From the IMG/VR virus record IMGVR_UViG_3300045431_000138, positions 1-23,846 of that record: a stretch of DNA of 23,846 nt; one strand, given 5' to 3'. Positions 3,140 to 23,727 of the stretch are shown here, piece by piece. Position 1 is the stretch's first letter. Every line of letters starts with the position of its first letter. The notes beneath the pieces were generated by a model that had not been told where the DNA came from, ran no database searches, and saw only the letters and a program-made list of their open reading frames with translations. The stretch is from a virus. The position numbers and the translations under genes were made by a program.

Positions 3140-3802
3140 ATGTTTGAATTTTTAAGTATAAAGTCATTAAGTAGTTTTTTTACATTATCTACATTGTTAA
3201 CATTTATACCTGACTTTGTATTTCATGGAATATTTCTTACAGGTCTTGTAGGATTTATAATTACATCTATTCCTCTTATACCAATCCCAATGAAGTTTTT
3301 ATATCGTATAATTTTTTTAATTTTATTGATAGGAGGAACTTGGTTAGAAGGATTAAATTATGCGGTTAGCTCTTCTAATACTAAAAAGATATTAAAAGAA
3401 AGTAAAGATAAAATAAAAACATACGAAAAACAAATAAAAGACTTATCTGAAGCATCAGATAAAAATTTAGAAAGAATAGTTAAAAAAATAAATGAAAGAG
3501 GTGAAAATGTTCATGATAAAATATCAAAGATTATTCCTGATAGTCTTAATAAGCAGTGTGCTCTTCCTTATGATGTCAAATTGCTCCATAATGAAGCCAT
3601 CACAGGGTTCTCCGAAATACCCAACTCCACCAGAGGTGCTGATGGAAAATCCAAAACAAATGAAAACGATAAAGTAGAATTAAGAACATTATTAGAAACA
3701 ACTGTAGATAATTATACAGAATGTAATATAATACGTGAAAAATTAATCGCTTTACAAGCTTGGGTAAGAGAAGCAGAAAGATTAAATAAAAATGTCAAAT
3801 AA
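3140..3802 (+). CDS. Rz-like inner-membrane spanin (i-spanin)
   Basis: 220 residues. Up to three hydrophobic segments (about 8-25, 28-48 and 53-70) are followed by a Lys/Glu-rich coiled coil (about 80-135) and a C-terminal region with LLETTVDNYTEC and LIALQAWVREAE (residues ~184-213). The NYxxC...LxxLQxWV pattern is the C-terminal signature I associate with Rz-type spanins. In lysis, i-spanins sit in the inner membrane and bridge to an outer-membrane lipoprotein to fuse the membranes. An odd number of membrane segments would place the coiled coil in the periplasm, as required. Most Rz proteins have only one such segment, so the extra hydrophobic N-terminus is unusual. A lipoprotein ORF lies inside this gene in the +1 frame, as in Rz/Rz1 pairs. 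The stop overlaps the next start by 11 bases. Confidence 0.75.
   Translation: MFEFLSIKSLSSFFTLSTLLTFIPDFVFHGIFLTGLVGFIITSIPLIPIPMKFLYRIIFLILLIGGTWLEGLNYAVSSSNTKKILKESKDKIKTYEKQIKDLSEASDKNLERIVKKINERGENVHDKISKIIPDSLNKQCALPYDVKLLHNEAITGFSEIPNSTRGADGKSKTNENDKVELRTLLETTVDNYTECNIIREKLIALQAWVREAERLNKNVK
3507..3677 (+). CDS. Rz1-like outer-membrane spanin lipoprotein, nested inside the Rz-like gene
   Basis: 56 residues, wholly inside the i-spanin gene in the +1 frame. The ATG at 3507 is preferred over 3492 because AGAGG (3497-3501) lies 5 bases upstream. The protein has a short basic N-region (MFMIKYQR), a hydrophobic core, then a Cys at residue 26 in the context LMMSNC, and a short Pro-rich mature part (SPKYPTPPEVLMENPKQM). 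A small Pro-rich lipoprotein nested in Rz is the hallmark of Rz1 o-spanins. The residue before the Cys is Asn rather than Gly/Ala/Ser, so the lipobox is imperfect. The PPEVLMxxP tail fits o-spanins I recall. A chance out-of-frame ORF with signal, Cys and Pro-rich tail at exactly this place is unlikely. Confidence 0.7.
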   Translation: MFMIKYQRLFLIVLISSVLFLMMSNCSIMKPSQGSPKYPTPPEVLMENPKQMKTIK

Positions 3803-4229
3803 CAATGAAAACGGAAACGGAAACGGAACTGTTAAATCACGTTTCGTTAAAGTAGTGGCTGACATTGACTTACTTAAAATATTATTAAGTAAACTTGATA
3901 AAAATGTAGACAAATTAGCAGATGCTTCAGTAGAAGTAAGTAAGTTAATTTCCAAACATGAAGTAAGGATTGAAAATAACGAACAAAAATCTGAGAATTT
4001 AAATAGTGAGATACACGAATTAAATATGCGTATAATGGAAATACATAAAGAAATTAAAGAAGTAAGTAATCATTTATCAAATACTAGTTCAAGTAGTATT
4101 GAGAAATTATCGAACCAAGTACATAATATTGAACGTTGGAAATGGTATGCTGCAGGTGCTATTTTAGCAATTACCGTTGGTGTGGAATATAAGAATATAG
4201 CCGAAATATTATTAAAAATCTTTAGTTAA
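3792..4229 (+). CDS. XhlA-like coiled-coil protein with C-terminal membrane segment, possible holin component
   Basis: 145 residues: a polar Asn/Gly-rich start, a long amphipathic coiled coil (about 25-115, with segments such as LSKLDKNVDKLADASVEVSK), a conserved-looking IERWKWYAAGAI junction, and one hydrophobic segment (about 117-132) before a short amphipathic end. This coiled coil - IExW - membrane layout is that of XhlA/haemolysin-type phage proteins and similar small phage membrane proteins. Position directly after the two spanin genes (11-base overlap with Rz) supports a lysis role, either holin or holin modulator. No endolysin is in the window. Holin assignment is inference. Confidence 0.6.
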   Translation: MSNNNENGNGNGTVKSRFVKVVADIDLLKILLSKLDKNVDKLADASVEVSKLISKHEVRIENNEQKSENLNSEIHELNMRIMEIHKEIKEVSNHLSNTSSSSIEKLSNQVHNIERWKWYAAGAILAITVGVEYKNIAEILLKIFS

Positions 4230-4234
4230 AGGGC

Positions 4235-4263
4235 TTTACATACAAATTAAAACATAGTATAAT
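4235..4263 (+). promoter_or_regulatory. Sigma70-like promoter P1 (upstream of primase)
   Basis: TTTACA at 4235-4240 and a perfect TATAAT at 4258-4263 are separated by exactly 17 bases. The flanks (CTTTACATACAA ... ATAGTATAATAT) recur at 15971-16002. It lies in the 73-base gap after the lysis block, where a new transcription unit for the replication genes is expected. The predicted transcript start is near 4270, giving a leader of about 33 bases. Confidence 0.8.
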
Positions 4264-4264
4264 A

Positions 4265-4293
4265 TTTACATAGAAGTTAAAATATAATATAAT
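4265..4293 (+). promoter_or_regulatory. Sigma70-like promoter P2, tandem copy 30 bp after P1
   Basis: TTTACA at 4265-4270 and TATAAT at 4288-4293, again with a 17-base spacer; another TATAAT at 4283-4288 overlaps it. The -35 follows P1's -10 by one base, so the whole promoter is repeated with a 30-bp period. The predicted start (~4300) is only about 3 bases before the primase ATG at 4303, so this transcript would be nearly leaderless. Confidence 0.75.
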
Positions 4294-5939: not shown

Positions 5940-6167
5940 ATGCCTAGATATAATATAAAAGATTTTACAATAGGTCATAACGAAGAAACGTTTCAATTTT
6001 TTACAGACTTAGCAAAACGACATAAAGCACTAGTGCTTGAACAAGATAAATTAATGAAAGATGTGTCTAGTATTGAAAAGTTAGATATAACAGAGACACT
6101 TGATATTATAAGAAAAGCGGAACAAAATTTAAAAGAGAAAGAATTAAAAGATAAACAAAATGAATAA
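5940..6167 (+). CDS. Small hypothetical protein
   Basis: 75 residues, charged and helical, starting with MPRYNIKDFTIGHNEETFQF. The second half is Lys/Glu-rich and coiled-coil-like. It abuts the previous stop and overlaps the next gene by 8 bases (start 6160), so it is coupled on both sides. No family is recognised. Confidence 0.6.
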   Translation: MPRYNIKDFTIGHNEETFQFFTDLAKRHKALVLEQDKLMKDVSSIEKLDITETLDIIRKAEQNLKEKELKDKQNE

Positions 6168-6717
6168 AACTCTTTTAGAAATTGATAATAGACAATTAAC
6201 TATATTTGATGACCTATACACAGCAGCAGATAGAGAAAGACTTTATCATTTTTGTTCAACAAGACATTTTACTACAGATGGAAGTGACACACCAAGATTA
6301 GAATATAAAGGTGACTTTAATTTATATTGTAATCTACTTGCGAGTAATCAATTAGAACAATCAAACTTCCTTAATTTAGAAGGAACTAAGCAGATACTTT
6401 CTATGTTAAATGGATATGAGATTATTCAAGCAAGAGTTAATTTAAGTACGCTTCATGATAAAAACCGTTTTCATTGTGATGCTGCAGGATCGAATGATGT
6501 AAGAACTATATTATACTATCCTAATATGACATGGAATATTGAATGGGGTGGTTATACTATGTTTACTAATCAGAATATGAGTAAATTAGAATATTGTTCT
6601 TTTTATATTCCAGGAAGAGTAATACTTTTTGATGGTACTATACCACATTGTATTTCATCACCAAATCCATCGGCTCCAACTTATAGATTTAGTTTCGTAA
6701 TTCAATATTACAAATAG
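6160..6717 (+). CDS. 2OG-Fe(II) oxygenase-like protein (prolyl 4-hydroxylase type)
   Basis: 185 residues. The 2-oxoglutarate/Fe(II) dioxygenase core is visible: HxD at H105-D107 (NRFHCDAAG), a strand LYYPNMTWNIEWGGYTMF as in prolyl-hydroxylase-like folds, the distal His at H163 (LFDGTIPHCISS) and the 2OG-binding Arg at R176 (APTYRFSFVIQY). Such enzymes couple O2 and 2-oxoglutarate to hydroxylation of a protein, nucleotide or small molecule; the substrate cannot be told. N-terminal residues 1-80 form a helical support region. It is followed 6 bases later by nrdA. It is only distantly like the other four oxygenase-like genes here. Confidence 0.8.
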   Translation: MNKTLLEIDNRQLTIFDDLYTAADRERLYHFCSTRHFTTDGSDTPRLEYKGDFNLYCNLLASNQLEQSNFLNLEGTKQILSMLNGYEIIQARVNLSTLHDKNRFHCDAAGSNDVRTILYYPNMTWNIEWGGYTMFTNQNMSKLEYCSFYIPGRVILFDGTIPHCISSPNPSAPTYRFSFVIQYYK

Positions 6718-6723
6718 TAGCTT

Positions 6724-8523
6724 ATGACAATAGAAATTTATAATGACATACGAGTAGATTATACTCGTGATTCCTTATTCGATAATGCTGGAATAAAACG
6801 TATGAAAGAATCTTATATGAAAGATGAAGAAACATCTCCTCAACAAAGATTAGCTTTTGTAAGTAAAACATTTTCTTCAAATAAAGAACATGCTCAAAGA
6901 CTCTATGACTATTCTTCAAAACATTGGTTATCTTATTCTACTCCTATACTTTCATTCGGAAGAAGCAAAAGAGGATTACCAATTTCTTGTTTTTTAAATT
7001 ATATAGAAGATACAGCTGAAGGATTAGTTAAAAATCTTTCAGAAACTAATTGGTTGTCAATGGTTGGGGGTGGAGTTGGTATAGGATTTGGTATAAGATC
7101 AGCTGATGATAAATCAACTGGTGTGTTGCCACACTTAAAAATATATGATGCATCTACACTTGCTTATAGACAAGGACGTACAAGAAGAGGCTCTTATGCT
7201 GCTTATCTTGATATATCACATCCTGATATAATTGAATTTTTAGAAATAAGAAAACCAACAGGTGATCAAAATGTTCGTTGTTTAAATATACATCATGGTA
7301 TTAATATACCAAATGAGTTTATGGAACTTATTGAAAAATGTATGTTAGATATAGATGCAGATGATAAATGGGCTTTACGTGATCCACATACAAAAGAAGT
7401 TAAAACTTATATAAGTGCTAGAAATTTATGGCAACGTATATTAGAAATGCGTATGATGACTGGAGAACCATATATTCATTTTATTGATACCTCAAACGAA
7501 AATCTTCCTTCTTTCCTAAAATCAAAAAATTTAAAAATTAATCAATCAAATCTTTGTTCTGAAATTATATTACCAACAAGTGTTGAAAGAACTGCTGTTT
7601 GCTGTTTATCTTCAGTTAATTTAGAATATTTTGATGAATGGAAAAAAGACGACCAGTTTTTAGCAGATATAGCAGAGATGTTAGATAATGTTCTTACATT
7701 TTTTATATCTCACGCTCCGAATGCTATATCAAGAGCAAAATACTCAGCTGAAAGAGAAAGAAGTATCGGAGTTGGTGCACTCGGATTTCATGCTTACTTA
7801 CAAATGAAAAACATTCCATGGGAATCAGCTATGGCTGTTTCTGCAAATACAAGAATGTTTATGCATATAAGAAATTTGTTAGATAAAGCAAATATTAAAC
7901 TTGGTAAAGAAAGAGGTGAAGCACCAGATGCGATTGGAACAGGGCAAAGATTTTCTCATGTAATGGCTATCGCACCAAATGCTTCATCCTCTATCATAAT
8001 GGGAAATACATCACCATCAATTGAACCATTTAGAGCAAATGTTTATAGACAAGATACTCTTTCTGGAGCGTCTATAAATAAAAATAAGTACTTAGATAAA
8101 TTAATAAAAAAATATATTGATAAAAACGATAAACTTGATTATGATAAAATTTGGTCTAGTATTATAATGAATGATGGTTCAGTTCAACACTTAGAATTTT
8201 TAAAAGATAACGAAAAAGAAACTTTTAAAACAGCTATGGAAATAGATCAACGTTGGATTATAGAACATGCTTCAATACGTCAAGAGTTTATAGATCAAGC
8301 ACAATCAGTTAATTTATTCTTTAGACCAGATACAGATGTTAAATATCTGCACGCTTGTCATTTCATGGCTTGGAAAAAAGGTTTAAAAACTTTATACTAT
8401 TGTCGTAGTGAAAAAATTGGTAAAGCTGATAAAGTCGCAAAGAAAATTGAACGAAGAATTATTGAAGAAATTGAAATGAAAGATTTAACAAAAGAGGATA
8501 CATGTTTAGCATGCGAGGGCTAA
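6724..8523 (+). CDS. nrdA: Class Ia ribonucleoside-diphosphate reductase, large (alpha) subunit
   Basis: 599 residues. It reduces ribonucleotides to deoxyribonucleotides with NrdB. C89 (LPISCFLN) fits one active-site Cys. N276-x-C278-x-E280 (SNLCSEIILP) is the catalytic triad with the thiyl-radical Cys, followed by C293/C294 as the paired redox Cys. A phosphate-binding region (IAPNASSSIIMGNTSPSIEP) follows. Y558-Y559 (LKTLYYCRS) are the radical-transfer tyrosines, and the C-terminal dithiol is C594-LA-C597. The N-terminus starts directly in the barrel-associated helices with no room for an ATP-cone, so this enzyme probably lacks dATP activity control; it is much shorter than E. coli NrdA (~760 aa). 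The partner nrdB is about 2 kb downstream. Confidence 0.97.
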   Translation: MTIEIYNDIRVDYTRDSLFDNAGIKRMKESYMKDEETSPQQRLAFVSKTFSSNKEHAQRLYDYSSKHWLSYSTPILSFGRSKRGLPISCFLNYIEDTAEGLVKNLSETNWLSMVGGGVGIGFGIRSADDKSTGVLPHLKIYDASTLAYRQGRTRRGSYAAYLDISHPDIIEFLEIRKPTGDQNVRCLNIHHGINIPNEFMELIEKCMLDIDADDKWALRDPHTKEVKTYISARNLWQRILEMRMMTGEPYIHFIDTSNENLPSFLKSKNLKINQSNLCSEIILPTSVERTAVCCLSSVNLEYFDEWKKDDQFLADIAEMLDNVLTFFISHAPNAISRAKYSAERERSIGVGALGFHAYLQMKNIPWESAMAVSANTRMFMHIRNLLDKANIKLGKERGEAPDAIGTGQRFSHVMAIAPNASSSIIMGNTSPSIEPFRANVYRQDTLSGASINKNKYLDKLIKKYIDKNDKLDYDKIWSSIIMNDGSVQHLEFLKDNEKETFKTAMEIDQRWIIEHASIRQEFIDQAQSVNLFFRPDTDVKYLHACHFMAWKKGLKTLYYCRSEKIGKADKVAKKIERRIIEEIEMKDLTKEDTCLACEG

Positions 8524-8936
8524 GAAGAAGATTAAAAATATGGATTACTGTATTACTTTTAACTGTAATATTTTTAACATTAGCATCATGTATTCCAGCT
8601 TTTAAAAAATTATTACCATCATCATATGACGATAATGAAATGTTAATGATTTCAAATTTAAGATATGATGTAAGGCAAGTACAATGTACTGGTGATAAAT
8701 CACATGAAACCATAACAAAAATATGGGAAGGAAAAGAAAAGTTATATTACTATTCATCAGCAAAAGAGAATGAAGATGTATTAAAAATGATAAGACCATT
8801 TTCTGAAAGTATGAGAGGTCTTTATGACTCTTCTAAATCAGGAAATATGAAAGAAATTTATTGTATTGAAAAAGTGATTAACTTAACAAAGCAAGTTGAT
8901 ATTATAGCTAATGCACTTGCAGCAAGGAACAAATAA
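8502..8936 (+). CDS. Putative lipoprotein of unknown function
   Basis: 144 residues. A basic N-region (MRGLRRRLK), a hydrophobic core and the lipobox LASC with Cys30 form a textbook lipoprotein signal. The mature part is helical and polar, with a single Cys in VQCTGDKSHE and another in IYCIEKVINL. The ATG at 8502 has AGAGGA just upstream and overlaps the nrdA 3' end by 22 bases; an in-frame ATG at 8511 is an alternative. From memory, similar small lipoproteins occur in marine phages, but no function is known to me. The stop TAA shares a base with the next ATG at 8936. Confidence 0.7.
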   Translation: MFSMRGLRRRLKIWITVLLLTVIFLTLASCIPAFKKLLPSSYDDNEMLMISNLRYDVRQVQCTGDKSHETITKIWEGKEKLYYYSSAKENEDVLKMIRPFSESMRGLYDSSKSGNMKEIYCIEKVINLTKQVDIIANALAARNK

Positions 8937-9187
8937 TGAATATAACTGAAGCAATGCAACTCATGAATGAATTAACACAATCTGAAAATTCATGGTTAAG
9001 AGAAAAAGCAAATAAAGTATTAAGATATAATCATCAACATGAAACAGGACAATTATCCACAGCTGAATATGCAGACCTGTTAACTGATTTAGCACGTATC
9101 GAAGAAATACAAGAAGAAGCAGATACGATGAAATATAAAGCAGCAATAGAAAAGTTTATTACGACAGCATTTTCACTACTTAGTTAA
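8936..9187 (+). CDS. Small conserved-looking hypothetical protein
   Basis: 83 residues, helical, with a repetitive acidic middle (TGQLSTAEYADLLTDLARIE) and a hydrophobic end (IEKFITTAFSLLS). The C-terminal helix could contact a membrane, but there is no clear transmembrane segment. The start overlaps the lipoprotein stop by one base (TAATG). The STAEYADLLxDLxRIE pattern is reminiscent of other phage hypotheticals, with no known role. Confidence 0.65.
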   Translation: MNITEAMQLMNELTQSENSWLREKANKVLRYNHQHETGQLSTAEYADLLTDLARIEEIQEEADTMKYKAAIEKFITTAFSLLS

Positions 9188-9191
9188 TATT

Positions 9192-9890
9192 ATGTTTGTA
9201 TTTAAAAAAATAGATAATTGGTTTACTGACGAGGAACGTTTAAATATAAAAAACAAAGTTGAATACTTTAAAGCTGATTGGAGACATATAAAAGATACTC
9301 CTTTAGCAAAATCTGATAAACTTTTAGCAGCACAAAATCCTGACCTTTATAAGTCGGCAGAAAATCAATATTTCTTAGGTGATGCTACATATGTACTAGA
9401 AAAACTAGATCAAAGGAATAAAACTTTATCAGAAAACCTAAATGTATCGTTTTTTGATTTATATGATAAAATAGTAAATACAGTTAAAGGTATAACAGGT
9501 ATGCCTACTTCATATTTGAAAGAATATCCTCGTCCAGGATTCCATGTATTTAGAGGTAAACAAATACCACATCCTTTTGAATATCATATAGATACTACGA
9601 TATGTAGATATGATCCTAACTTTAAACCACAAGATTGTTATTCATTTTTATCATTAATTGAGTCTCCAATCAATGATCCAGCAGGTTTAGAATATAAAGA
9701 TACAAATGACTTTGATGCATTAAAAGATTATCCTGAAAAAATAAAACTATATGATTTAAATACTTTTTATTATTGGAAAGGTGATCATTATCATAGAATG
9801 AAAAGGTTTGGTATGAATGATGGTGAAAGTAGGATTACTTTACAAGGGCATTACGTACTTAAAGATAACAGAGCATATATTTACTGGTAA
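9192..9890 (+). CDS. 2OG-Fe(II) oxygenase-like protein A (tandem paralogue)
   Basis: 232 residues. HxD at H132-D134 (FEYHIDTTICRYD), a likely distal metal His at H199 or H201 (KGDHYHRM) and an Arg-containing last strand at R214 (SRITLQGHYV) fit a 2OG/Fe(II) dioxygenase of the double-stranded beta-helix type. The signature PGFHVF-GKQI-PF ahead of the HxD is shared with the next gene (PGFHIF-GKQI-PF; HTDTT; KRITLQGH), so the two are tandem paralogues. The N-terminal ~100 residues are helical. It lies between nrdA and nrdB. Substrate unknown. The next gene starts 4 bases after the stop. Confidence 0.7.
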   Translation: MFVFKKIDNWFTDEERLNIKNKVEYFKADWRHIKDTPLAKSDKLLAAQNPDLYKSAENQYFLGDATYVLEKLDQRNKTLSENLNVSFFDLYDKIVNTVKGITGMPTSYLKEYPRPGFHVFRGKQIPHPFEYHIDTTICRYDPNFKPQDCYSFLSLIESPINDPAGLEYKDTNDFDALKDYPEKIKLYDLNTFYYWKGDHYHRMKRFGMNDGESRITLQGHYVLKDNRAYIYW

Positions 9891-9894
9891 GATT

Positions 9895-10581
9895 ATGAAA
9901 CGTTTTTCTTTCGCTGAAATACAAAACTTTTTCTCAGAAGGTGAACGAAACCAAATAGCTAGAAAAGTTTTAGAATTAAAACCACATTGGAAAAAGTTAC
10001 ACAATTATAATATATACAAAAGTAGTGTTTATTTAAAGTCTGATTATTCTAAAAATCAGTATCTACTTGGTGATAGTATATATCCACTTAAACCCAAAGA
10101 TACGAGTGAAATAAACAAGGAGGTTCAAGGAATACTCCTAAAAGAATTTAAAGAATTAATATATGAAAAATTAATTAATAAAATAGGTGTTTGGTTTGAA
10201 GTTTTTAATTATAAAGGAACTGAGTTTTATCCAAATTTACCAATCCCAGGATTTCATATTTTTGATGGAAAACAAATAGCTGAGCCATTCGGATGGCACA
10301 CTGATACGACACTTTGTTTATGGGAAGATAATATAGATCCTAAAAGATTATTTTCTTTTTTATCTCCAATCATGATGCCACAACAAGGAGCACACTTAGA
10401 GTGGTTAATGGTATCAGGAAAAGAAAGTACAATACCATATGAATATGGTACATTGCATTTATGGAGTGGTATTGAAAAACACAGAATAGGTCGTCACGCA
10501 TTAGCAAATTATGAAAAACGAATTACATTACAAGGACATATATATATTAATCCAACAGGAAAAGTACAATTATTTTTTTAA
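9895..10581 (+). CDS. 2OG-Fe(II) oxygenase-like protein B (tandem paralogue)
   Basis: 228 residues from ATG 9895; an in-frame ATG at 9817 would overlap gene A by 74 bases and add sequence with no counterpart in the paralogue, so it is rejected. H135-D137 (FGWHTDTTLCLW), H196 (IEKHRIGRH) and R209 (KRITLQGH) are the candidate Fe and 2OG ligands. Both paralogues open alike (hydrophobic F-x-x-I...NWFTDEER versus NFFSEGER), both carry NQYxLGD near residue 57, and both end in an aromatic tail (IYW, LFF). Divergence is large, so the duplication is old or the pair was acquired together. Function is unknown. Confidence 0.7.
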   Translation: MKRFSFAEIQNFFSEGERNQIARKVLELKPHWKKLHNYNIYKSSVYLKSDYSKNQYLLGDSIYPLKPKDTSEINKEVQGILLKEFKELIYEKLINKIGVWFEVFNYKGTEFYPNLPIPGFHIFDGKQIAEPFGWHTDTTLCLWEDNIDPKRLFSFLSPIMMPQQGAHLEWLMVSGKESTIPYEYGTLHLWSGIEKHRIGRHALANYEKRITLQGHIYINPTGKVQLFF

Positions 10582-10599: not shown

Positions 10600-11598
10600 A
10601 TGAACGTGCCAAAAGAAGCAGTAAAATCATTAACCGAAGAAAGAAACTACTTTAAACCATTTAACTATCCATGGGCTTATGACGCATGGCTTAAACATGA
10701 ACAATCACATTGGCTTCATACTGAAGTACCAATGCTAGAAGATGTAAAAGATTGGAAAACCAAATTAACACCGCCACAAAAACATTTTCTTACAAATATC
10801 TTTAGATTTTTTACACAAGGTGATATTGATGTAGCAGGTGGTTATGTAATGAACTATCTTCCATATTTTCCACAACCAGAAATTAGAATGATGATGTGTG
10901 GATTTGCCGCACGTGAAGCTTTACATATAGCAGCATATTCTCATTTAATTGAAACATTAGGTTTACCAGAAGCAACTTATAATGAATTTAATAATTATAA
11001 AGAGATGGCGGCAAAACATAATTACTTTGTAGACCTAGCATCTAAAAATACAAATAGAGCAAATATTGCTATAAGTATCGCAGCATTTTCAGCATTTACT
11101 GAAGGTATGCAATTGTTTTCATCTTTTATTATGTTATTAAATTTTCCAAGACATGGGCTCATGAAAGGTATGGGTCAAATAGTTACTTGGTCAATGGTAG
11201 ATGAAACACAACATTGTGAAGCAATGATACGTGTGTTTAGAACTTATATTGAAGAAAATAATGAAATATGGAACGATTCTCTTAAAAAGAAAATATACGA
11301 TATCGCTGAAAAGATGGTAGAATTAGAAGATAATTTTATTGACCTCGCTTTTTCTATGGGCGATATGCAAAATTTAAAAAGAGAAGAAGTAAAAGAGTAT
11401 ATTCGTTATATATGTGACCGAAGACTCATTTCAATGGGTTTAAAGGGTATTAATAAAAGAAAAATAAATCCACTTCCATGGGTAGAAGAAATGATGAACG
11501 CTCCTATACATGGAAACTTTTTTGAAAATCGTATTACTGATTATGCAAAAGGATCTCTAAAAGGTGATTGGGGAGATGTTTGGGGAGCTAAAAAATAA
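10600..11598 (+). CDS. nrdB: Class Ia ribonucleoside-diphosphate reductase, small (beta) subunit
   Basis: 332 residues of ferritin-like helical protein that generates the tyrosyl radical for NrdA. The di-iron ligands are in canonical order and spacing: D75 (FTQGDIDVAG), E106 and H109 (AAREALHIAAYSHL), E168 (AFTEGMQLF), E202 and H205 (MVDETQHCEAM). The spacings 31, 3 and 34 match E. coli NrdB (D84, E115, H118, E204, E238). Y113 stands at the position of the radical Tyr122 (E+7), so this is a tyrosyl-radical subclass. The C-terminal tail has Y315 for radical transfer and ends in GDWGDVWGAKK. AGAGGAAC precedes the ATG. Confidence 0.97.
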   Translation: MNVPKEAVKSLTEERNYFKPFNYPWAYDAWLKHEQSHWLHTEVPMLEDVKDWKTKLTPPQKHFLTNIFRFFTQGDIDVAGGYVMNYLPYFPQPEIRMMMCGFAAREALHIAAYSHLIETLGLPEATYNEFNNYKEMAAKHNYFVDLASKNTNRANIAISIAAFSAFTEGMQLFSSFIMLLNFPRHGLMKGMGQIVTWSMVDETQHCEAMIRVFRTYIEENNEIWNDSLKKKIYDIAEKMVELEDNFIDLAFSMGDMQNLKREEVKEYIRYICDRRLISMGLKGINKRKINPLPWVEEMMNAPIHGNFFENRITDYAKGSLKGDWGDVWGAKK

Positions 11599-11778: not shown

Positions 11779-12201
11779 ATGACAAACTGGTTATACGAAC
11801 AAAAAGAATTTACTGATTGCTCTAAGTATTTTGGTTTTATTTATTCAATTACAAATAATTTAAATAATAAAAGTTATATAGGGCGTAAATATTTTACATC
11901 AGCTAAAACTAAAAAGCCACTTAAAGGGAGAGTAAACAAAAGACGTTCAAGAATAGAAAATGATTGGAAAGATTATTGGGGATCCTCTCCAGCATTTTTA
12001 AAAGAAGTAGAAACAGTAGGGAAAGAAAATTTTAAAAGAGAAATACTTCGACTTTGTAAAACAAGAGGTGAAGTTAATTATTGGGAAGTAAAATATATGT
12101 TTGAGTTTGATGTATTAAATGCGAAACTTCCTAATGGTGAAAACAAATATTATAATGAAAATATAATGATGAAATTTACAAGAACAAATATAGGAAAATG
12201 A
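11779..12201 (+). CDS. GIY-YIG-like putative endonuclease
   Basis: 140 residues. The GIY-YIG signature is visible as G19-F-I-Y22 and Y33-I-G35 followed by R36-K37 (KSYIGRKYF); a basic stretch RVNKRRSR follows, with DWKDYWGSS and an acidic candidate at E103 (GEVNYWEVKY). I recall this layout (NWLY...FxYxITN...YIGKK...DWxxYxGSS...LCKxxGExNYxE) from a conserved small endonuclease-like family of T4-like phages. It may be a homing-type or repair nuclease; unlike homing enzymes it has no obvious separate DNA-binding domain. It lies 8 bases after the zinc-ribbon gene. Confidence 0.75.
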   Translation: MTNWLYEQKEFTDCSKYFGFIYSITNNLNNKSYIGRKYFTSAKTKKPLKGRVNKRRSRIENDWKDYWGSSPAFLKEVETVGKENFKREILRLCKTRGEVNYWEVKYMFEFDVLNAKLPNGENKYYNENIMMKFTRTNIGK

Positions 12202-14175: not shown

Positions 14176-14757
14176 ATGAATGACGTTATGAAATATGTGA
14201 TTACAGGTCATAGATCTGGTATAGGAGAAGCCATATTTAAATATTACGGTAAACAACCTAATATATATTGTGTTGGTTATGATAAATCACATTACTTAGA
14301 TTTAAATGACGACAGAGTACATTCAGATTTTTTAGAGAGATGTGAAGATGCTTCAGTTATTATATTAAACGCACATACTGGTAGACAACATATCTCTTTA
14401 AAAACCCTTTATACTCTTTACAAATCAAAACATAAACATATAATTGTAATTGGTTCATTAGTAAGTAAAATATGGAAAACACAACAAGAAGTCCCAAAAG
14501 GTTTTGAAGAATATTGGTCTCAAAAAATATTACTCGATAAAACAGTAGAAGAATTATATGATCCTAACAGTTCTTTTCTAGAACTATACACTCCACTTAA
14601 AATAAGTATTATTCGTCCAGCTTGGGTTGACACTCCATTAGCAAAAGATTATACAGGAAAAAAATTAACAATAAATTCAGTTTTAAATGCAGTAAGATTT
14701 ATAATTGAGAATAAAGATGCTTATATAACAAATATGGATTTACAATGTACGAATTAA
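14176..14757 (+). CDS. Short-chain dehydrogenase/reductase (SDR) family protein
   Basis: 193 residues. The Rossmann dinucleotide motif is T10-G-H-R-S-G15-I-G17 (YVITGHRSGIGEAIFKYYG), equal to the SDR TGxxxGIG. N65-A-H stands for the NAG motif (VIILNAHTG), S94 (IVIGSLVSK) is the catalytic Ser, and Y113-x-x-x-K117 (EYWSQKILL) the catalytic pair. RPAWVDTPLAKD is the usual PGxxxTpm segment. It is shorter than typical SDRs (~250 aa), lacking much of the C-terminal substrate region. The start could be ATG 14176 or 14188; neither has a Shine-Dalgarno. Its 3' end overlaps the aminotransferase gene by 13 bases, so they are probably one functional pair. Substrate unknown. Confidence 0.8.
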   Translation: MNDVMKYVITGHRSGIGEAIFKYYGKQPNIYCVGYDKSHYLDLNDDRVHSDFLERCEDASVIILNAHTGRQHISLKTLYTLYKSKHKHIIVIGSLVSKIWKTQQEVPKGFEEYWSQKILLDKTVEELYDPNSSFLELYTPLKISIIRPAWVDTPLAKDYTGKKLTINSVLNAVRFIIENKDAYITNMDLQCTN

Positions 14758-15968
14758 GAAATAGTGCTGACGGTGAAATTGAAAAAATAGTTAAGAATAC
14801 TTATCGTTATTGGGTTGAGATGAATGATGGTAAAAAATATTTAGATATTCAATCTGGCAACAGTGCTTTTATACTTGGTTATGGAAATACTGAAATTATA
14901 AAAGCAATGGCTGACAAAATATTTTCTGTTAGTTTTTTAAGAGGTAATACAGGTGAGACTGATGTTGATACTCAGGAACTAGTTTCTTTTGTATTATCTG
15001 AATCAAGAATGTCAGTAATGTCTTGGGCTATTTCTGGCACATCAGCAGTGGAATGTGCGATTATGATGAATGATAGTTATTGGAAACAAGTAAATGCTAA
15101 AAAACATTTAATCGTATCTTGTTCTCCAGGATATCACGGTACAAGTTATTTGACTAGATGTATGGCTAATCCATATTCAATCGAATTTCCATCAGATAGA
15201 TTAAGATGTATTCGTGCACCTAAATGGAGGAATATAGAAGAACGTGCAGATGAAGAACAAAGAGCAATTATAGAGTTAGAAAGAAGACTCTCTAAATTTG
15301 ATGACTCTTCAAATGTTGGTGCTTTTATAATGGAAACTTGTCCTTGGATGAATGGAATATTACCATATAGTAGATGGTGGTGGAATAGTGTAAGAAGTAT
15401 TTGTGACAAATATAAAATAAATTTTATTACAGATGATGTAGCAGTATGTTGGGGCAAATCATTATCTTATTTTGGTTATTCAACAGCAGGATACAATATT
15501 CAACCAGATATTATTGCTTGCGGTAAATCATTATCAGCAGGGTATGCACCGATAGGATTCGCAGTAGGTAATGCTCGTATAGGTGAAGTCCTTTCAACAC
15601 AGGAGTGGGGATGGGGGCATACTTGGCAACCTTATATGGCTGGTATTGGTGCGATGAAAAAAGTAAAAGAAATTATTTCAAATAATGGTTTATTTCATAT
15701 AGCAAAAAATACAGTTATACGATTAGAAGAAATAGCAAAAGATTTATATAATCAAGGTTATTTAAATTGTTATAGACAAGAGGGTTTATTTTTAGAATTA
15801 GATTCTAAAAAACCAATTCTTGGAGTAATGGGAAAACTTATACGTTCAGGAATGTTATCAACTACTACACAAGACAGTTCAGTTAGAATTATAGCTAATT
15901 TAATTGCTGATGATGAGTATTTTAGGGAATTAAAGGCAAGATTAAATGACTTTTTTAGCAAAAATTAA
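14745..15968 (+). CDS. PLP-dependent class-III aminotransferase
   Basis: 407 residues, typical for the family. A Gly-Thr-Ser phosphate-binding element (AISGTSAVECAI, G98-T99-S100), PGYHGTSY (Y130-H131-G132), ITDDVAVCWGK (D230 or D231 contacting the pyridine N) and the Schiff-base Lys K261 (IIACGKSLSAGYAPIGFAVG) mark fold-type I, class III, near glutamate-1-semialdehyde mutase and omega-transaminases. HTWQPYMAGIGA is the usual GHTYxxxP-like region. The substrate cannot be assigned; Trp-rich WWWNSV near residue 211 is notable. It overlaps the SDR gene by 13 bases and ends a few bases before a promoter, closing a two-gene unit that may make or change an amine-bearing metabolite or surface/DNA modification precursor. 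Confidence 0.85.
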   Translation: MYELRNSADGEIEKIVKNTYRYWVEMNDGKKYLDIQSGNSAFILGYGNTEIIKAMADKIFSVSFLRGNTGETDVDTQELVSFVLSESRMSVMSWAISGTSAVECAIMMNDSYWKQVNAKKHLIVSCSPGYHGTSYLTRCMANPYSIEFPSDRLRCIRAPKWRNIEERADEEQRAIIELERRLSKFDDSSNVGAFIMETCPWMNGILPYSRWWWNSVRSICDKYKINFITDDVAVCWGKSLSYFGYSTAGYNIQPDIIACGKSLSAGYAPIGFAVGNARIGEVLSTQEWGWGHTWQPYMAGIGAMKKVKEIISNNGLFHIAKNTVIRLEEIAKDLYNQGYLNCYRQEGLFLELDSKKPILGVMGKLIRSGMLSTTTQDSSVRIIANLIADDEYFRELKARLNDFFSKN

Positions 15969-21580: not shown

Positions 21581-22249
21581 ATGAACTTTGTAGTAAATTT
21601 ACCACATATACAATGCTGGATTAAAAAAGAGTTTCTTTATGACTTTAAAAAAGGTTTTGGAGAATATATTCCATGCACATGGGTAACACTTAAATCTATT
21701 CCACGTAGAGCTTTTTATATTGAAAGTTATTTACCAGAATATGGAGCACTCTATGATAAACTTCCTATAAGTGCTTATGTATGGAAAACTGATATTGATT
21801 TAGATAAACAACTTCCTTTAGATTTTTTACAATTATGGGATGGGTTTAGTTATCATATTTCATTAATTGAAAAACAATTTTTACAAAATTGTCGTGTTGA
21901 AATTATATTAAGAGATGGTTCACGTATGAGCGGTGAATACCTATTCACAATAGATAGTGCTCATGCTGATCCGAATATTCCAAACGTCACTGAGTCCGAA
22001 GTCCCCACAGAACATAAATCACATAATATCGGTAAGTTAGATAATGGGCAATGGTTTGCTCAACCAAATAATCGCATGTTGTTTTTTGAATCAAGTTCAG
22101 TTAGATCAAAAGGATTAAGTGTTCCTGACTTTAAAGTAAGTTCAAAATATTATCATTGTGAACAAAATCCAAAATGGGTATTTGGAGATAGCGATGAATA
22201 CTTTTATCCATCATACGAAGTAAATAAAAAACCAAATGACAAAGAATAA
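21581..22249 (+). CDS. Conserved marine T4-like phage hypothetical protein
   Basis: 222 residues. The N-terminus NFVVNLPHIQCWIKKEFLYD followed by GFGEYIPCTWVTLKSIPRRA and LPISAYVWK, then LPLDFLQLWDGFSYHISLIE, a GSRMSGEYLFTIDSAHADPN segment and GQWFAQPNNRMLFFESS, fit a conserved hypothetical family I recall in T4-like cyanophages and pelagiphages. The function is not known. The C-terminal part ends in an aromatic patch (DEYFYPSYEV). It follows the tRNA by 15 bases. Confidence 0.8.
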   Translation: MNFVVNLPHIQCWIKKEFLYDFKKGFGEYIPCTWVTLKSIPRRAFYIESYLPEYGALYDKLPISAYVWKTDIDLDKQLPLDFLQLWDGFSYHISLIEKQFLQNCRVEIILRDGSRMSGEYLFTIDSAHADPNIPNVTESEVPTEHKSHNIGKLDNGQWFAQPNNRMLFFESSSVRSKGLSVPDFKVSSKYYHCEQNPKWVFGDSDEYFYPSYEVNKKPNDKE

Positions 22250-22257
22250 ACAATTTT

Positions 22258-22971
22258 ATGTTATTTAATGAATCGGTTATAAATCATAAAGCACTTCATT
22301 ATCAGATATGCCCTCTTCCTTTAAATGATGAAGGAATGAAGTGGATGGAAGAACAAACATTTTCAAAACAAACTAAATTATGGGTGCCGATTAAGTATCA
22401 CAGTCATGTGTTTTTGAAATGGACTAAAATGATTGGTTTAAGTATTACAGATATAGAATTATTTTATAATCCACCAAGTCATTCAATGCCTGTTCATATT
22501 GATGGAAATAATATTCATGATGAATTTAAATTAAATTATGCTTTTAATCCAGTTGGAAATAGTTTAATGAATTGGTTTAAACCTAAAGTAAATACAGTAG
22601 CAAAAGCTCAAGGAGTGTTGTACGAAAATCAATCTGAAAGAGATATTAATACAGCAGATTTATATTGGTATCCTGATGAAGTTGATTTAGTTGAAAGTCA
22701 TGATATTAAAGTTTCAATTGTTCAAGTTGGACAACCACATAATGTTACTACTACTCATTCTTCTCGTAAATGTTTATCTTGTGTATTTGATAAAATATTA
22801 ATTCCAGGATGGACTACAAATGATCAGATTATATTAAATGAAGATTTAAGTAAAATATCATTAGATAGAGATAAAGCAGTTAAAGATGGAATTTTACAAG
22901 ATGTTGTACCAATGTGGGATGCTGTAAATTTGTTTAAAAATTATATTATACAGCATGAACAACATGAATAA
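22258..22971 (+). CDS. 2OG-Fe(II) oxygenase-like protein C (Asp/Asn hydroxylase or cupin type)
   Basis: 237 residues. HxD at H80-D82 (SMPVHIDGNN), candidate distal His H161 (VGQPHNVTTTHSS) and Arg R170 (SSRKCLSCVF) are in the order and spacing of the 2OG/Fe(II) fold. FNPVGNSLMNWFKPK between the metal sites and YWYPDEVDLVESH also recur in altered form in the protein at 23134 (CAINWQYC, MQWWNPKP, AWTPEECDLIHTS). The C-terminal ~50 residues are an added helical region. Its 3' end overlaps the zinc-finger gene. Target unknown; the small metal-binding neighbour may be a partner. Confidence 0.7.
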   Translation: MLFNESVINHKALHYQICPLPLNDEGMKWMEEQTFSKQTKLWVPIKYHSHVFLKWTKMIGLSITDIELFYNPPSHSMPVHIDGNNIHDEFKLNYAFNPVGNSLMNWFKPKVNTVAKAQGVLYENQSERDINTADLYWYPDEVDLVESHDIKVSIVQVGQPHNVTTTHSSRKCLSCVFDKILIPGWTTNDQIILNEDLSKISLDRDKAVKDGILQDVVPMWDAVNLFKNYIIQHEQHE

Positions 22972-23137
22972 AAAAACAATTATAGAAACTTCAGAAGATA
23001 CAGTTTACTGTGATGGATACGATCCTGATCTAGATGACGATACTCATCCAAGAGTATTTTATACATTAAAAGAACGTCCAAATGGTGAAATAAATGCTGT
23101 TTGTTTTTATTGCGGTATAATTTTTAAAAAAGTATGA
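22955..23137 (+). CDS. CHCC-type zinc-finger protein
   Basis: 60 residues. C19-DG...H31-P-R-V-F then C50-FY-C53-G matches the zf-CHCC pattern (CDG...GHPRVY...C.YCG), known from the mitochondrial complex I subunit NDUFS6 and small alphaproteobacterial proteins. The start may be ATG 22955 or 22964. It overlaps the oxygenase upstream (17 bases) and the one downstream (4 bases, ATGA), so it is translated together with two 2OG-oxygenase-like proteins. It may carry zinc for structure or be an adaptor; no function is assigned. Confidence 0.7.
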   Translation: MNNMNKKTIIETSEDTVYCDGYDPDLDDDTHPRVFYTLKERPNGEINAVCFYCGIIFKKV

Positions 23138-23727
23138 AAAATATTTATTGCGCAAATTTAAAATTACCAGTAAACGATGTAATGATAGATAAAAACTGGT
23201 TAAGTAAAATGCCTAACAAGGGACACTTTCCTATACCAGAAAAAGAAGTAAATCCTGAATTATTAGATTTTTTTGAAAGCAAAGGAATGTACTTAAAAAA
23301 TGCTGATGTATTTTGTTCTCCTCCTGGATTTTATTTACAAATACATATTGATGGAACAGATTTGGGTACTAATTCTTGTGCGATTAATTGGCAATATTGT
23401 ACAGAAAAAGGTTCTTATATGCAATGGTGGAATCCTAAACCTGAATTTGCAAATAAAGAAATTATAGAGCCAGAAAGTTTTAGTGAAAATAGTTATAAAA
23501 TAGAAACAACACCATATGCTTATGCTTGGACACCTGAAGAATGTGATTTAATTCATACATCTGAAATAGGTTATCCATCATTAGTAAATATTGGAGTACC
23601 ACACTCAATGAAAAATGATACAAAAGTTAATCGATATGCCGTTAGTTTAACTTGGAGACGTTATAACGGTTCAACAGTAGAATGGAATTACGTATATGAG
23701 AAACTACAGTCATACGTTGTGGCGTGA
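23134..23727 (+). CDS. 2OG-Fe(II) oxygenase-like protein D (relative of protein C)
   Basis: 197 residues. H71-x-D73 (YLQIHIDGTDLGTN), H157 (NIGVPHSMKND) and R167 (VNRYAVSLTWR) form the expected Fe/2OG set. MQWWNPKPEF and WTPEECDLIHTSE align by eye with the same regions in the protein at 22258, so the two are divergent paralogues. It starts in an ATGA overlap with the zinc-finger gene, and its 3' end overlaps the next gene by 32 bases. Confidence 0.7.
   Translation: MKNIYCANLKLPVNDVMIDKNWLSKMPNKGHFPIPEKEVNPELLDFFESKGMYLKNADVFCSPPGFYLQIHIDGTDLGTNSCAINWQYCTEKGSYMQWWNPKPEFANKEIIEPESFSENSYKIETTPYAYAWTPEECDLIHTSEIGYPSLVNIGVPHSMKNDTKVNRYAVSLTWRRYNGSTVEWNYVYEKLQSYVVA

Follow-up and report, generated by a model that had tools for sequence, protein, structure and literature searches.

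A tandem pair of putative Fe(II)/2-oxoglutarate oxygenases with a WelO5-like fold between the ribonucleotide reductase genes of a large phage

The locus and its paired genes

The window analysed here is the whole 23,846-nucleotide stretch of IMG/VR virus record IMGVR_UViG_3300045431_000138. Its plus strand carries a ribonucleotide reductase (RNR) locus in which nrdA, for the large subunit (6724..8523; PF02867, E 1.3e-109), and nrdB, for the small subunit (10600..11598; PF00268, E 1e-71), are separated by four genes of the same strand. A 144-aa gene (8502..8936) overlaps the end of nrdA and has an N-terminus that by eye resembles a lipoprotein signal, and an 83-aa gene (8936..9187), which adjoins the pair in relatives as well, lies directly upstream of gene A. 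Gene A (9192..9890, 232 aa) and its paralogue gene B (9895..10581, 228 aa) are annotated, from their open reading frames, homology and structure models, as Fe(II)/2-oxoglutarate (2OG) oxygenases of the HxD type with a WelO5-like fold. An earlier sequence-only reading had placed this tandem between nrdA and nrdB, and the placement is confirmed, with the addition of the two small genes that it left unmentioned. Read from the ATG at 9895, B begins 4 bases after A; this ATG is most likely the true start, as the mechanical ORF start at 9817 falls inside A. The codon aligned to B's first is not ATG in the relatives L003 and L020.

A and B are identical at 77 of 226 positions (34%), and the BLASTP E-value of 4e-35 means that the likeness is not chance. 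Both carry the motifs PxPGFHxFxGKQ, HxDTT and RITLQGH, and 53 columns are invariant among 18 aligned sequences of the A and B kinds, so the earlier description of diverged paralogous copies with a well-kept signature stands. Purifying selection acts on both genes, as indicated by dN/dS values of 0.09-0.31 against four relatives (0.12-0.31 for A and 0.09-0.23 for B).

Fold and predicted active site

Structure prediction, which the sequence-only reading had proposed as a check, gives a double-stranded beta-helix in the AF2 models of both A and B (pLDDT 91.1 and 92.9, built from 18 and 27 aligned sequences). In Foldseek searches the best 17 solved chains were all WelO5 or WelO15, for A and for B, with best E-values of 1.4e-9 and 1.8e-11, respectively. 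VIA-align matches A to WelO5 with a Z of 18.8 and an rmsd of 2.8 over 208 residues, and B with a Z of 19.9 and an rmsd of 2.5 over 206 residues. Behind WelO5, the best of the other entries is an N-substituted L-amino acid dioxygenase at Z 13.6 for A and 14.0 for B, which leaves WelO5 as the nearest fold by five to six Z units in both cases; an AlkB chain stands at Z 12.2 for A, in a tied second tier. The full-length match of both models to solved double-stranded beta-helix oxygenases, together with a His/Asp/His/Arg set kept in 27 of 27 aligned copies, bears out the original 2OG-oxygenase call and supports the assignment of A and B, as modelled, to the Fe(II)/2OG oxygenase superfamily with its double-stranded beta-helix fold.

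Profile and sequence searches see far less of this relationship. Pfam returned no match beyond chance level for A or B, the WelO5 family (PF22814) included; the WelO5 model picks out 2 among the 27 family members, at E 2.9e-5 at best, and relatives score 21.5, 16.2, 20 and 16.9 bits against a cut-off of 27 bits. It also matches both bacterial relatives tested (E 5e-4 and 5e-3), none of 10 members of another viral clade, and not the more distant protein of viral contig L081. PHROGs assigns A to phrog_24927, of unknown function (E 1.6e-4), to which 13 of 27 family members match with E-values no higher than 1 and as low as 1.1e-6. A collection of 50,697 phage records held no match to A, B or a remote A orthologue, and a remote B orthologue matched six Prochlorococcus phage records there. 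PDB sequence searches with family proteins gave chance-level matches only, and among the papers searched none joins WelO5 with phage. A defence annotation was considered for the pair and rejected, neither protein having a PADLOC match.

The predicted Fe ligands of A are H132-x-D134 (9585..9593) and H201 (9792..9794), and its predicted 2OG-binding arginine is R214 (9831..9833), 13 residues past H201. Their predicted counterparts in B are H135-x-D137 (10297..10305), H196 (10480..10482) and R209 (10519..10521), all six features lying on the plus strand. In a sequence alignment the HxD, the distal His and the Arg are invariant in all 27 A and B copies. More widely, among 74 copies from viruses and bacteria, 70 fit the pattern HxD...H...R[IV][ST]xQ[GAC]H. 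Of the four that do not, three have HxD by eye (one of them cut by a contig end), and one, the bacterial family member at 7965-8669 of L162 (a Synechococcus MAG), has HxH in place of HxD. Besides the predicted 2OG arginine and an arginine beside the distal His, none of the tabulated Arg/Lys positions is invariant: among the aligned copies position 114 of A is I, R, V or K, and position 16 is R, V, S or T.

WelO5 has HxG, with halide bound where other enzymes of the family have Asp. A and B lack this halide site and have Asp at that position in 27 of 27 aligned copies; since they carry HxD and not the HxG of WelO5, hydroxylation would be expected rather than halogenation. Judged by these residues, A and B are expected to be oxygenases, most simply hydroxylases, and not halogenases. 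The PDB entry 5iqu, which is among the structural matches, is the G166D variant of WelO5.

The pair in related phages

The 36 contigs of this group were retrieved with A and B as queries, so the frequency of loci without the pair has to be read from the NrdB scan below. A and B stand in tandem in 35 of the 36 (some cut by a contig end), and the remaining contig starts inside B; nrdB comes after B in all but L019, which ends inside B (35 of 36). The gene order persists even as protein identity drops to 39% for A and 34% for B, with NrdA and NrdB staying at 74-79%. Exactly two family copies are present in each of six related virus records of 68-145 kb, and the pair belongs to a large phage, with related records of up to 145 kb.

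Two trees bear on the history of the pair. The first was built from 49 representatives of 224 sequences, merged at 93% identity after fragments under 190 aa (8 of 232) were left out, and it carries a long-branch warning. B shares a clade with proteins that phages encode at other loci (the tail-operon and thyX groups described below), and A lies outside it (99/98 in the first tree, 89/99 in the second). Thus, B is nearer to proteins of other loci than to A, the split between A and B is old, and a recent duplication in place is rejected. Neither tree resolves A as a single group. In the most remote phages (L073, L077 and L078), B falls outside the set of other B, tail and thyX proteins (94/84), which leaves a single unbroken history of the pair uncertain; gene replacement in these phages is possible on this branching. 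A 100/100 branch in the second tree separates A and B from their bacterial relatives, and function may therefore have changed between the two.

The nrdA-nrdB gap as a cargo site

With NrdB as query, at least 599 stretches gave a match, and the best 80 loci, all at 77% identity or above, were kept; 12 of these were too short to judge, which left 68 assessable. No family member lies in the nrdA-nrdB gap of 53 of the 68 (nrdA was seen upstream in 51 of those 53), and the family is present in 15, as a pair in 14 and on one contig that begins inside A. RNR of this type thus does not need A and B. Fourteen intervals, picked mainly for length and read by eye, contain thioredoxin-like, IscU/IscA-like, amidotransferase-like and glycosyltransferase-like genes as well as unknowns. 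Across L175-L240 the intervals without A and B range from almost nothing to about 2,700 bases, with differing cargo, and that of L175 encodes a small protein that by eye resembles a different kind of 2OG oxygenase. The space between nrdA and nrdB is thus a hot spot where accessory genes form a variable cargo. With the pair missing from 53 of 68 loci and such varied cargo in the 14 intervals, location says little about substrate, and the proposal that placement in a nucleotide-supply locus points to a nucleotide or DNA base is weak.

The 83-aa gene upstream of A was considered as an obligate partner of the pair and ruled out, being present without A and B in L184, L192 and L201. A 222-aa protein encoded elsewhere in the window (21581-22249) has look-alikes, by eye, in the nrdA-nrdB gaps of L182, L184, L192, L209 and L215, which suggests cargo shuffling.

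Relatives at other loci in phages and bacteria

Outside this locus, B's closest viral kin fall into two settings. In the tail group (L099, L104, L106, L108, L113, L118 and L122) all 7 of 7 representatives have the gene 4-67 bases past a tail-tube gene and followed, after 80-84 bases, by a baseplate-hub-like gene; unlike A and B, these relatives show one copy, in a structural operon and not at nrd. In the thyX group (L101, L102 and L111) it lies 0.7-3.2 kb from thyX in 3 of 3. When the 28 family representatives outside the A/B locus are taken together, 8 are within 5.4 kb of RNR or thyX, 7 are in tail operons and 13 are without RNR, thyX or tail markers, several of them on short contigs.

A distant homologue is PHM1_170 of Prochlorococcus phage P-HM1, which matches the remote B orthologue at 25% identity over 64% of the query (E 3e-4) and the Pfam WelO5 family at E 0.008. 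Its distance to nrdA is 1.4 kb and to an Asp_Arg_Hydrox gene 2.2 kb, but it differs from A and B in being a single copy in its record, annotated as hypothetical, and in grouping with the bacterial branch. Among eight virus records searched, Asp_Arg_Hydrox is above the Pfam cut-off in P-HM1 and three relatives of the window's phage, and is not found in three other relatives. On the P-HM1-like viral contig L086, two tandem family members (5974-7592) lie 1.9 kb from an Asp_Arg_Hydrox gene, a pairing found in bacterial peptide clusters too. Viral contig L081, with its distant family member, carries an adenylosuccinate-synthetase-like gene (by eye) at 3274-4266, a possible pointer to 2-aminoadenine synthesis of the PurZ type.

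A first scan of genome contigs found no relative, and a second, with another viral clade as query, found 20 loci across cyanobacteria, Acidobacteria, Chlamydiae, Proteobacteria and Bacteroidota; L144, which is counted among them, resembles a phage contig and groups with phages in the second tree. LanM, Nif11 or NHLM-type transporter genes lie near the oxygenase in 8 of the 20, ATP-grasp-like genes only in 4 more (L148, L154, L158 and L161) and none of these markers in the other 8, in counts that cover the family loci alone. This neighbour search used reference genes, initially identified by eye, that came from P-HM1 and six of these 20 loci; a PCAT match in L148 resembles a plain ABC transporter and was left out of the count, and L150, L151, L157 and L159 are short contigs. 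In the neighbours tested, Nif11, LANC_like, Peptidase_C39, PqqD and Asp_Arg_Hydrox pass Pfam cut-offs. The ATP-grasp domain falls below them in both neighbours tested, which makes the four ATP-grasp loci the weakest. An Asp_Arg_Hydrox gene is present in 7 of the 20 loci and two family copies in 5. The oxygenases of the lanthipeptide, Nif11, NHLM or ATP-grasp loci (L145, L147-L150, L154-L156, L158, L159, L161 and L163) match the family profile at E 4.5e-32 to 8.5e-49, and those whose sequences were read carry PGFHIF, HxD and R[IV][ST]xQ[GA]H, as in the A/B family. A RiPP-tailoring oxygenase would be expected beside a precursor peptide and its core modifying enzyme; a LanC-like gene, the marker used here, is missing from all eight virus records searched, some of which may be fragments; there is thus no sign that the phages make a lanthipeptide.

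Discussion

The nearest known enzymes are WelO5 and WelO15, carrier-protein-independent Fe/2OG halogenases (PF22814; 5iqv, 5iqs, 6gem) that share a full-length fold with A and B at 12-16% identity in structural alignments. They are about 280 aa long, whereas A and B are a phage-borne HxD pair of about 230 aa each. WelO5 is known as a small-molecule halogenase, and both the fold and the chemistry are familiar. What seems to be new is the HxD branch, its pairing in phages, its members in tail operons and its recurrence beside peptide-tailoring genes.

At this point, the reading that I favour, with confidence that is evenly balanced, is that A and B are a catalytically intact pair of Fe(II)/2OG oxygenases that oxidise side chains of a peptide or protein. 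Each protein would hold Fe(II) through its His-x-Asp and distal His and 2OG through the Arg 13 residues beyond that His. O2 and 2OG would then yield an oxyferryl intermediate able to hydroxylate a C-H bond or oxidise it in another way; with the Asp kept, the WelO5 halide site is absent and chlorination would not be expected. The substrate may be of phage or host origin, for instance a virion protein, a host protein or the product of a gene at the locus. A and B might modify two different residues, catalyse successive steps or form a heteromer, and distinct targets, as the sequence-only reading suggested, may be involved. A peptide or protein is favoured over DNA because many of the bacterial kin sit in peptide-tailoring clusters and one group of B's nearest viral kin sits among tail genes. 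The sequence-only reading had called nucleotide and protein targets equally possible; of the two, a protein target now has the better support. For comparison, 2OG oxygenases acting on graspetides are described in a paper that also cites work on a SmaO/SmaX pair (PMC13097080). Several observations pull away from a peptide or protein: both leading fold matches, that to WelO5 and the one ranked second, are to enzymes with small-molecule substrates; the eight virus records searched have no LanC-like gene; 8 of the 20 bacterial loci lack all of the peptide-cluster markers; and the thyX and RNR neighbours of some kin would also be explained by a nucleotide role.

Oxidation of a free small molecule, such as an amino acid, a lipid or sugar precursor or a host metabolite, as auxiliary metabolism is an unlikely but serious alternative. 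It accords with the substrates of WelO5 and the N-substituted L-amino acid dioxygenase, the two best fold matches, and with the aminotransferase-like gene present in the window. Kin with informative contexts, however, are often in tail operons or by peptide-tailoring genes, and no steady pathway partner accompanies the pair in the 36 contigs, save the two small genes and RNR. Oxidation of a nucleotide, a deoxynucleotide or a DNA base, for modified DNA synthesis or an altered dNTP pool, I consider rather improbable. The pair lies between nrdA and nrdB in every contig of the group that extends far enough, and 8 of 28 representatives elsewhere are near RNR or thyX, but the pair is lacking from 53 of the 68 assessable loci (among the best 80 of at least 599 NrdB stretches), the 14 intervals read hold varied cargo, and kin occur in tail operons and beside peptide-tailoring genes. 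The closest nucleotide-acting parallel would be AdaV and AdeV, which are halogenases, AdeV having an HxG halide site, whereas A and B have HxD in all 27 copies. In the AdeV study, the iron ligands are given as H192 and H250, and R263 holds the C4 carboxylate of succinate (PMC12766721), so that the spacing of 13 from H250 to R263 in this dAMP halogenase equals that from H201 to R214 in A; other nucleotide halogenases exist (PMC11186838). PDB sequence searches gave no match of the A/B family to AdaV or AdeV chains, and these chains are not among the 50 VIA-align matches listed for A and B, which excludes nothing. At the level of sequence, the arginines that bind the 5'-phosphate in AdaV and AdeV have no clear invariant counterpart in A and B: the candidate, position 114 of A, varies, and of the Arg/Lys positions tabulated the only invariant ones are the predicted 2OG-binding arginine and the arginine adjoining the distal His.

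The remaining two explanations fare worse. Paired paralogues sometimes split catalysis and scaffolding, and one or both copies could in principle be an inactive scaffold of the oxygenase pair; with the predicted catalytic residues invariant in both kinds (27/27) and both genes under purifying selection, this is improbable to a high degree. That A and B modify or assist RNR itself, acting on NrdA or NrdB, would suit their strict position within this group, but it is the least probable of the explanations weighed here: in 53 of the 68 loci that could be assessed, NrdB proteins of 77-80% identity occur with no A/B pair beside them, A and B drop to 39% and 34% identity while NrdA and NrdB hold 74-79%, and 20 of 28 representatives elsewhere have neither RNR nor thyX in the available stretch, several of these being short.

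Returning to the favoured peptide or protein target, a more specific version of it is tentative and rather doubtful: a two-enzyme phage protein-tailoring module that hydroxylates a virion protein, possibly of the tail, or a host protein during infection. If true, kin of bacterial WelO5-fold peptide oxygenases would have been put to use by phages, and wired into the tail operon in other phages. The broad HxD branch around WelO5 becomes testable as peptide or protein hydroxylases. A caution also follows for annotation: since the cargo of the nrdA-nrdB gap varies among these phages, a gene's presence there should not be read as a sign of nucleotide function.

Other genes in the window

Directly upstream of nrdA, gene C (6160..6717, plus strand) is a separate 2OG oxygenase-like gene, with matches to 2OG-FeII_Oxy_3 (E 0.002) and an FlmC-like family (E 2.5e-19) that are both below cut-off, and the A/B family profile does not match it. 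The PHROG to which it belongs, phrog_274, bears the label 'DNA endonuclease V', apparently a misannotation. Some 13-14 kb downstream of A, two genes (22258-22971 and 23134-23727) show HxD...H patterns by eye and have no Pfam match; in three related records, three Asp_Arg_Hydrox-like matches lie further from A, at 19-23 kb on its downstream side, and may be other genes than the two of the window. A short-chain dehydrogenase-like gene (by eye) is followed by a class III aminotransferase-like gene at 14176-15968. Finally, nrdB is followed by a SegE-type GIY-YIG endonuclease gene (11779-12201; PF19835, E 3.9e-38), and a SegE-type match after nrdB is present in 34 of 36 contigs.
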